Below are positions 5,938 through 36,101 of a stretch of 64,000 nucleotides of DNA, piece after piece; within the stretch, counting starts at the first letter, position 1, and each line of letters begins with the position of its first letter. Source of the stretch: Deltaproteobacteria bacterium (lineage in GTDB: Bacteria > SZUA-79 > Acidulodesulfobacterales > Acidulodesulfobacteraceae); the NCBI GenBank assembly GCA_023489335.1, contig JAMDCP010000013.1, positions 1 to 64,000 of the forward strand, in the 5' to 3' direction. The notes beneath the pieces are model-generated. The model ran no database searches. It was not told the origin of the DNA and worked only from the letters and a program-made list of their open reading frames with translations. The position numbers were made by a program, and so were the translations under genes.

Positions 5938-5977
5938 AATTAGACCTCCCGCTAATTAAATTCAAATAGTATCTTAA

Positions 5978-6165
5978 AAAGCAGGTCTTCCGGCTTAAAC
6001 ATAGGAACGTTCCGCCTTCCCGGCATTTATCAATCTTGCCAGTGGCTCAGTGGAATATTCTTTATGGCGGCTTTAAAAAGCAAAACGCCGCCATAAGTTA
6101 TTACGGCTGCGGGAACAGCACAGGATTTTCACCTGTTTCCCTAAACTTTTAAGATAAAGTTTAGT
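5978..6165 (-). promoter_or_regulatory. Cobalamin (B12) riboswitch
   Basis: The minus strand carries the conserved elements in order: ACAGGTGAAAATCCTGT, a GCTGTTCCCGCAGCCGTAA core, a variable GC-rich peripheral hairpin (GGCGGCG...CGCCGCC), the B12 box GCCACTGGCAAG, and the closing GCCGGAAGACCTGC. It lies in the leader of the cobalt permease. Family knowledge: adenosylcobalamin binding usually shuts off expression of the downstream gene. The ends are approximate by 10-15 nt. Confidence 0.93.
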
Positions 6166-34564: not shown

Positions 34565-35290
34565 CTACATTACGCTGTTAATTGCTTTGTTTTGCAATTC
34601 ATTAATTTTCGCTCCGGCGCTTTTTGAAAGTTCGTAAAGTTTCGCCAGTATATCGAATCCGATAGGCGTTTTTTCCGCGCACCCCTGAACCTCGATTATC
34701 TTTCCCGACCCTGTTAAAACAAAGTTAAAATCCAGCTCGGCAATAGAATCTTCAGAATAATCGAGGTCAAGCAAAATTTCACCGTTCACGATTCCAATGC
34801 TAATTGCGGCAGCCGAATCGTAAAACGGCATTTTTTCGATGTCGCCCTGCTTGATAAGCTTTAAGAACGCCAGATAAGCGGCAACATATGCCCCTGTTAT
34901 AGAAGCGGTTCTTGTTCCGCCGTCCGCGCTTATAACATCGCAATCTATTAATATGGTTATGTCGGGAAAATCCGAAAAATTCATAACAGACCTGAGCGAC
35001 CTTCCTATTAACCTTTGTATTTCCTGCGCTCTTCCGTTAACCTTTCCTTTTACGGAATCCCTCGGTATCCTGTTTTGCGCCGACCTCGGAAGCATGGAAT
35101 ATTCGGCTGTCAGCCATCCTTCCCCCTTGTCTTTTAAAAATGGGGGCACTTTATAGTCAACCGAAGCAGTGCAAATAACTTTAGTATCATCCGCCTCGAT
35201 TAAACACGACCCCTCCGCATACTTCATATAATTCGGCGTTATTACCATCGGCCTCATCTCGCCCGCTAACCTGTTTTTCTTTCTTGCCAA
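34565..35290 (-). CDS. rph: Ribonuclease PH
   Basis: 3'-to-5' phosphorolytic RNase that trims tRNA 3' ends. The start RPMVITPNYMKYAEGSCLIE, the QEIQRLIGRSLR phosphate/RNA site, and DCDVISADGGTRTASITGA are all conserved. 241 residues. Translation begins at TTG 35290, with GGGAG seven to eight bases upstream. The short SelD-like reading frame at 35266-35367 overlaps its start. Next gene downstream is rdgB. Confidence 0.94.
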   Translation of the reverse strand: MARKKNRLAGEMRPMVITPNYMKYAEGSCLIEADDTKVICTASVDYKVPPFLKDKGEGWLTAEYSMLPRSAQNRIPRDSVKGKVNGRAQEIQRLIGRSLRSVMNFSDFPDITILIDCDVISADGGTRTASITGAYVAAYLAFLKLIKQGDIEKMPFYDSAAAISIGIVNGEILLDLDYSEDSIAELDFNFVLTGSGKIIEVQGCAEKTPIGFDILAKLYELSKSAGAKINELQNKAINSVM

Positions 35291-35376: not shown

Positions 35377-35634
35377 TTAATCCCACTTTTTATTCTTAAT
35401 GAAAAATATGTAAAGGTCTTTCAAATGAATTACATTAAGTAATTTTACATTAATAAGCGAGCATAATGCAGGGATATCGTTTAATAAAGAATCCTTGTCC
35501 GAAATCACCATTAAAACATCGTCATGTTTTAAAACCTTAAGTTTTTGGACGACCGCCCAAACAGGCGGGCCTCAACAAAGCCCCCTGATATCAAGGGGAA
35601 CGCCTGTATAATTTAAGCCGGATTTAATCTCCAT
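35377..35634 (-). CDS. TusA/SirA-family selenoprotein (in-frame TGA = Sec21)
   Basis: An 85-codon gene hidden by one TGA at 35572-35574. The frame reads MEIKSGLNYTGVPLDIRGLC, then U21, GPPVWAVVQKLKVLK, HDDVLMVISDKDSLLNDIP, and so on to a TAA. This matches the TusA fold throughout: LD-RGL-x-C-P-x-P-V, the D-V-L-x-V-x-x-D strand, the DIP motif and a final YIFFIKNK strand; normal length is about 80. The TGA falls exactly on the family's catalytic cysteine. AGAGG five bases before ATG 35634 is a good ribosome site, and a SECIS-like hairpin follows the TGA. Family role: sulfur (or here perhaps selenium) relay by a persulfide-forming residue. Alternative: a nonsense mutation, made unlikely by its exact position and the SECIS geometry. 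Confidence 0.83.
35544..35561 (-). promoter_or_regulatory. Candidate bacterial SECIS element
   Basis: Counting from the base after the TGA, nucleotides 11-16 (TTTGGG) pair with 23-28 (TCCAAA), one pair being a G-T wobble, closing the six-base loop CGGTCG. The loop holds GGUC at +18 to +21. In the E. coli fdhF SECIS, as I recall it, a loop with GGUC sits about 18-22 nt after the UGA. SelB binding is inferred. A competing GC-rich stem (35553-35568) overlaps it. Confidence 0.65.
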
Positions 35635-35666: not shown

Positions 35667-36101
35667 TTACGCCGCCCTTAAGGCGGCGTCTAAAATACCG
35701 TTAACAAAAGACGGGGATTCATCGTTTCCAAATTTTTTGGCTATTTCCACGGATTCATTGATAATAACATTTTTAGGTATTTCAGGATGAAATAAAATCT
35801 CATAAATCGACAGCCTTAAAAGGTTTCTGTCAATTCTTGACATTCTTTCTATCGACCAATTTTTTGATACTTTCTTAATAATGCTATCTATCTTTTCTAA
35901 ATTAAGTAATGTCCCATGGGAAATATCGAAAAAAAAATCGTAAATCTGGGATGTATCCTTTTTAAATCCGTCTCTAATAAGGCTTTCCGAAGCAAAATCA
36001 TTATAAAAACTTCTTATTCTATAATCCAGCCCGTTTATATCCCCATCCGTTTCATATAAAAACTGCAATGCCAGTTCCCTTGCCTTTCTTCTTTTTGTCA
36101 T
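35667..36101 (-). CDS. nusB: Transcription antitermination factor NusB
   Basis: All-helical RNA-binding protein of 144 residues. RRKARELALQFLYETDG at the start and RNLLRLSIYEILFHPEIPKNVIINESVEIAK (in two shorter blocks around residue 90) then FVNGILDA are NusB hallmarks. Acts with NusE in rRNA antitermination. It follows ribH on the same strand, as in most bacteria. Its last codons form an 8-bp palindrome. No clear ribosome site. Confidence 0.94.
   Translation of the reverse strand: MTKRRKARELALQFLYETDGDINGLDYRIRSFYNDFASESLIRDGFKKDTSQIYDFFFDISHGTLLNLEKIDSIIKKVSKNWSIERMSRIDRNLLRLSIYEILFHPEIPKNVIINESVEIAKKFGNDESPSFVNGILDAALRAA
35669..35689. repeat. Palindrome at the nusB 3' end
   Basis: ACGCCGCC-CTTAA-GGCGGCGT, an 8-bp perfect stem over the last nusB codons and stop. 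In the minus-strand RNA it is followed by A/U-rich sequence but no proper U-run, so it may be a weak terminator or attenuator between nusB and the selenoprotein gene. Confidence 0.45.

Follow-up and report, generated by a model that had tools for sequence, protein, structure and literature searches.

A conserved SECIS-type hairpin after an in-frame TGA points to a selenocysteine-containing TusA-family protein in Candidatus Acidulodesulfobacterales

The window analysed here, a stretch of 64,000 nucleotides from contig JAMDCP010000013.1 of a genome of the Acidulodesulfobacterales, carries a short TusA/SirA-family gene between nusB and rph (Table 1). Its reading frame runs as MEIKSGLNYTGVPLDIRGLC-TGA-GPPVWAVVQKLK..., the TGA at 35574-35572 being the sole internal stop, and with selenocysteine (Sec, U) at this codon the predicted product is MEIKSGLNYTGVPLDIRGLCUGPPVWAVVQKLKVLKHDDVLMVISDKDSLLNDIPALCSLINVKLLNVIHLKDLYIFFIKNKKWD. 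Automatic annotation would cut the gene at codon 21. The order ribBA-ribH-nusB-[TusA-family gene]-rph is constant in 21/21 phylum loci examined and tells little about the role of the protein. A cobalamin riboswitch (76 bits) is found elsewhere in the window, at 5963-6164 on the minus strand. Positions downstream of the TGA are given as +n, corresponding to window position 35572 - n on the minus strand.

Table 1. Features at the TusA-family locus (window positions).
Feature	Position	Strand	Remarks
nusB	35667..36101	-	upstream neighbour, same strand as TusA-family gene
TusA/SirA-family gene	35377..35634	-	85 codons plus stop; one in-frame TGA, predicted to be read through
In-frame TGA, predicted Sec codon (U of CUGPP)	35572..35574	-	where TusA proteins have their catalytic Cys
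GC-rich alternative stem	35553..35568	-	+4..+9 with +14..+19; not conserved
SECIS apical hairpin (predicted)	35544..35561	-	+11..+28 after the TGA, UUUGGGC[GGUC]GUCCAAA, 7 bp
GGUC apical loop, presumed SelB contact	35551..35554	-	+18..+21
rph	34565..35290	-	downstream neighbour, same strand as TusA-family gene

By sequence and modelled fold, the product is a member of the TusA family. It matches the Pfam TusA model PF01206 with 35.2 bits (gathering cut-off 28.6, E 1.1e-8), and an AlphaFold model predicted from 27 orthologues (pLDDT 88) adopts the TusA fold, with E. coli TusA as its best match in the PDB (3lvj_C, TM-score 0.77-0.84). The TusA equivalog model NF001423 scores 40 bits, below the NCBIfam cut-off of 78, and identity with TusA itself would go beyond this score. 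The protein shares with TusA and SirA-like carriers (PF01206; E. coli TusA, 3lvj) the sequence family, the beta-alpha-beta-alpha-beta-beta fold and the position of the nucleophile; whereas those carriers have a CPxP motif with the catalytic Cys, a vicinal Cys-Sec pair (CUGPP) is predicted here. YedF, in which SirA and DsrE domains are fused and which has been linked to selenium (PMC2432076, PMC5322559), likewise ties a SirA-like domain to selenium use. However, the present protein is predicted to contain Sec, its gene lies between nusB and rph and not next to selD, and it consists of a single domain without the SirA and DsrE pair; together with the weak score of the YedF model NF008242 (22.7 bits, cut-off 79), the single domain led us to reject this identity. 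Cys occupies the Sec position both in a Nitrospirota-type homologue (GICCAQP) and in a paralogue of the same genome (DITGLCCSVP). The latter, L123 (G000:C11:15407-15619), reads DITGLCCSVPIIKISKEL and has its Cys at the position that aligns with the TGA.

The first-pass annotation had placed a SECIS-like hairpin downstream of the TGA, and its coordinates and bases are correct on the minus strand. The pairing that it described, +11..+16 (UUUGGG) with +23..+28 (UCCAAA) around the loop CGGUCG, holds, and C17 pairs with G22 as well, so that +11..+17 form seven base pairs with +22..+28 and leave GGUC unpaired at +18..+21 as a tetraloop. All 1445 TGA triplets on both strands of the window were scanned for a GGTC, 16-22 nt further on, that opens a loop of 4-6 nt closed by at least 6 uninterrupted base pairs; only this one qualified. 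The resemblance to the E. coli fdhF element is borne out by the genome sequence (NC_000913.3), in which GGTC lies at +19..+22 of fdhF (formate dehydrogenase H, b4079); the loop of the TusA-family gene is thus one nucleotide closer to the TGA. Both elements present a GGUC loop and follow closely on the UGA without leaving the coding sequence, but the fdhF core UGCA[GGUC]UGCA has a stem of unrelated sequence. The fdhF stem is described with a bulged U, to which the 7-bp stem has no counterpart.

The published bacterial SECIS (bSECIS) model, as quoted in a 2026 compendium, allows an upper stem of 4-16 bp, a loop that lies 16-37 nt from the UGA and a minimum free energy (MFE) of at most -7.5 kcal/mol (PMC13188914). 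With a 4-nt loop, G at both first loop positions, a 7-bp stem and 17 nt between UGA and loop, the hairpin agrees with this consensus, stem and spacing both being within the published ranges; the shortest contiguous stem among the homologues is 4 bp. The apical hairpin alone has -6.7 kcal/mol (homologues, -4.7 to -9.7) and falls short of -7.5, a limit that may cover more sequence than the apical part. Searches of the hairpin stretch against Rfam at gathering and relaxed thresholds gave no useful match, either way. Folding of the single sequence yielded a divided answer: a 40-nt piece preferentially adopts the GC-rich stem (-13.3 kcal/mol), and the MFE structure of an 81-nt piece includes the GGUC hairpin. 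In both cases the energy is only mildly better than that of shuffled sequences (z -1.2 for 40 nt, -1.6 for 81 nt). The GC-rich stem of the window is locally the more stable one and would hide the GGUC loop, which counts against a SECIS element. Since single-sequence folding is ambiguous between two stems, we did not rely on it and let the comparison of homologues decide.

The phylum was sampled with 30 genomes of Candidatus Acidulodesulfobacterales from acid mine drainage and their SZUA-79 relatives. A TGA-containing orthologue is present in 27 of them, spanning six genera, and each has exactly one internal stop, always TGA and always at the same codon, with the frame kept and the protein sequence after the TGA conserved. 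No such orthologue was detected in the remaining three genomes (G003, G018 and G024), possibly owing to incomplete assembly or to loss; selB scores above the cut-off in G003 and G024. The GGUC loop is unchanged in 27/27 phylum homologues, and in the 25 distinct sequences the hairpin is paired in 96% of cells, 24 of which carry a double change; three of its positions vary on both sides. Its covariation score of 0.354 exceeds the 0.162 +- 0.027 of shuffled alignments and was reached by 0/500 shuffles, counts that are not probabilities and that kinship among the sequences inflates. When the partner strand was slid by 1-3 columns, pairing fell to 51% or less, and the covariation of the GGUC hairpin lies above that of every slide. 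Coupled changes were also counted by parsimony on a tree of the neighbouring proteins, where they amount to a handful of events. Changes at +12/+27 (A-U, U-A), +13/+26 (U-A, U-G, C-G) and +14/+25 (G-C, U-G, U-A) are largely joint, and +15/+24, +17/+22 and the loop show zero changes. A lower stem around the UGA in the RNAalifold consensus (columns 22-26 with 34-38) was tried and rejected; of its five pairs, one fails to form in 9/27 sequences and the rest hardly vary.

The codons overlying the hairpin provide a second signal, which is independent of covariation. On the same tree, the third positions upstream of the hairpin (+3, +6 and +9) changed 11, 6 and 8 times, respectively, those at +15, +18, +21 and +24 not once, and those from +30 to +45 three to eight times each. 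Ala-Val-Val over the loop and inner stem is spelt GCG GTC GTC wherever these residues occur, with no synonymous variation in 26-27 sequences, at window codon frequencies of 0.23, 0.19 and 0.19 (GTC accounts for 19% of Val codons); all other conserved fourfold-degenerate residues vary. As read from these alignments, the freeze would serve the RNA, the protein having no need of it.

The same genome encodes SelA (566 bits), SelB (315 bits), SelD (356 bits) and tRNA-Sec (69.8 bits; reported by ARAGORN as tRNA-SeC with anticodon tca), a complete Sec machinery. Its selD gene (L068, G000:C13:31398-32324) has an in-frame TGA of its own, followed by a hairpin, AGGUCC[GGA]GGACCU, that likewise has +18 as the first position of its loop, and SelD is probably another selenoprotein of this genome.

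Outside the phylum, a MAG labelled Nitrospirae (G030) contains a TusA-family gene with TGA (L066, JAJXTW010000140.1) and with CUGGC[GGUC]GUCAG at the matching place. Its neighbourhood, with a universal stress protein downstream, is unrelated to that in the phylum; transfer or a misbinned contig could account for it. Two Nitrospirota-type genomes encode a diverged version, MKIIDVRGLCUGDPV, with a CUGDP motif (L073 and L084). In these the stem has a wholly different sequence, UYCUCAA[GGUCU]UUGAGGA, with GGUC still at +18, so that all three distant genes carry it. These two genes adjoin a two-component regulator gene pair. SelB scores above the cut-off in the genome of L073 (G032); that of L066 has partial selB-like matches below the cut-off, and in that of L084 (G051) no selB was found above it. 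A scan of genome contigs confined the TGA form to the phylum and the one MAG labelled Nitrospirae, a profile run against 386 genomes (30 of the phylum, the others domain-wide) brought up no additional TGA form (E <= 1e-8), and a search around the Nitrospirota-type order returned no TGA forms beyond the two already known.

On comparative evidence the hairpin is almost certainly a bacterial SECIS element. In the size of its loop, the loop G, the length of the stem and the spacing it agrees with the published model, and we file it as a bacterial SECIS with SelB as the predicted ligand. If the TGA were instead a true stop, the hairpin would have arisen by chance in GC-rich coding sequence, and the rest of the frame would be decayed or separately started. 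The mildly favourable folding energies in isolation would fit such a view, but 27 genomes that retain the frame, the protein sequence behind it, TGA as the one internal stop and the RNA structure render it very improbable. Hairpins that stimulate readthrough exist, and one might suppose that the UGA is decoded otherwise, by reassignment to Trp or Cys or by near-cognate readthrough, with the hairpin merely pausing ribosomes. TGA, however, ends 10/50 long open frames in the window, on which ground we rejected reassignment of the code; moreover, the genome encodes the complete Sec machinery, the TGA aligns with the catalytic Cys, and the loop matches fdhF and the selD of this genome in sequence and distance, all of which makes another decoding hardly credible.

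The first-pass annotation had further suggested that the GC-rich stem might compete with the hairpin in a regulatory manner. It is indeed the fold that the 40-nt piece prefers, but among the 25 distinct homologues only 74.7% of its cells are paired, no covariation rises above shuffles, the central pair +6/+17 is broken in 20 sequences, and two of its third positions, +6 and +9, belong to those that change most quickly. Regulation by this stem is thus highly unlikely. The proposal that the hairpin supports Sec insertion has fared well, as TGA homologues keep both loop and paired positions and the genome has the machinery for it; a hairpin spotted by hand has become a well-supported signal for Sec insertion. 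We therefore hold, with little doubt, that it is a canonical bacterial SECIS element which places Sec at the UGA of the TusA-family gene; this gene very probably encodes a selenoprotein.

Reactive sulfur is trafficked by TusA proteins, both for the thiolation of tRNA and in dissimilatory sulfur metabolism. During translation of the present gene, SelB carrying Sec-tRNA-Sec would bind the GGUC loop, displayed on its 7-bp stem some 17 nt beyond the UGA, and would insert Sec where the sulfur-carrying Cys stands in other TusA proteins, yielding a vicinal Cys-Sec pair. We infer both the insertion and the protein function from sequence. Homology suggests that Sec would act as the nucleophile that carries sulfur or selenium. 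The protein would most likely serve as carrier or transferase for persulfide sulfur or for selenium, and Sec may perhaps form a selenenylsulfide with the adjacent Cys. A role in sulfur trafficking would fit the dsrAB and sulfur-trafficking genes dsrEFH reported in this acid-mine-drainage group (PMC6776010).

The SECIS element itself is ordinary and of a known kind; its host is less so. Among the 119 prokaryotic selenoprotein families and subfamilies of the 2026 compendium there is no TusA, SirA or PF01206 entry (PMC13188914), and full-text searches of the open literature yielded no Sec-containing TusA or SirA. The host family thus seems previously unlisted as a selenoprotein. It is likely that we are dealing with a new selenoprotein family, a TusA-type sulfur carrier in which Sec replaces the catalytic Cys, distributed across an acidophilic sulfur-cycling phylum and a few Nitrospirota-type genomes and engaged in persulfide or selenium transfer. 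A Sec-TusA across a phylum with dsrAB and dsrEFH (PMC6776010) would offer a defined case of what selenium adds to sulfur transfer. A vicinal Cys-Sec pair is also found in the CU-motif selenoproteins KCU-star DUF466, SaoC and HgcA (PMC13188914), which belong to unrelated protein families.
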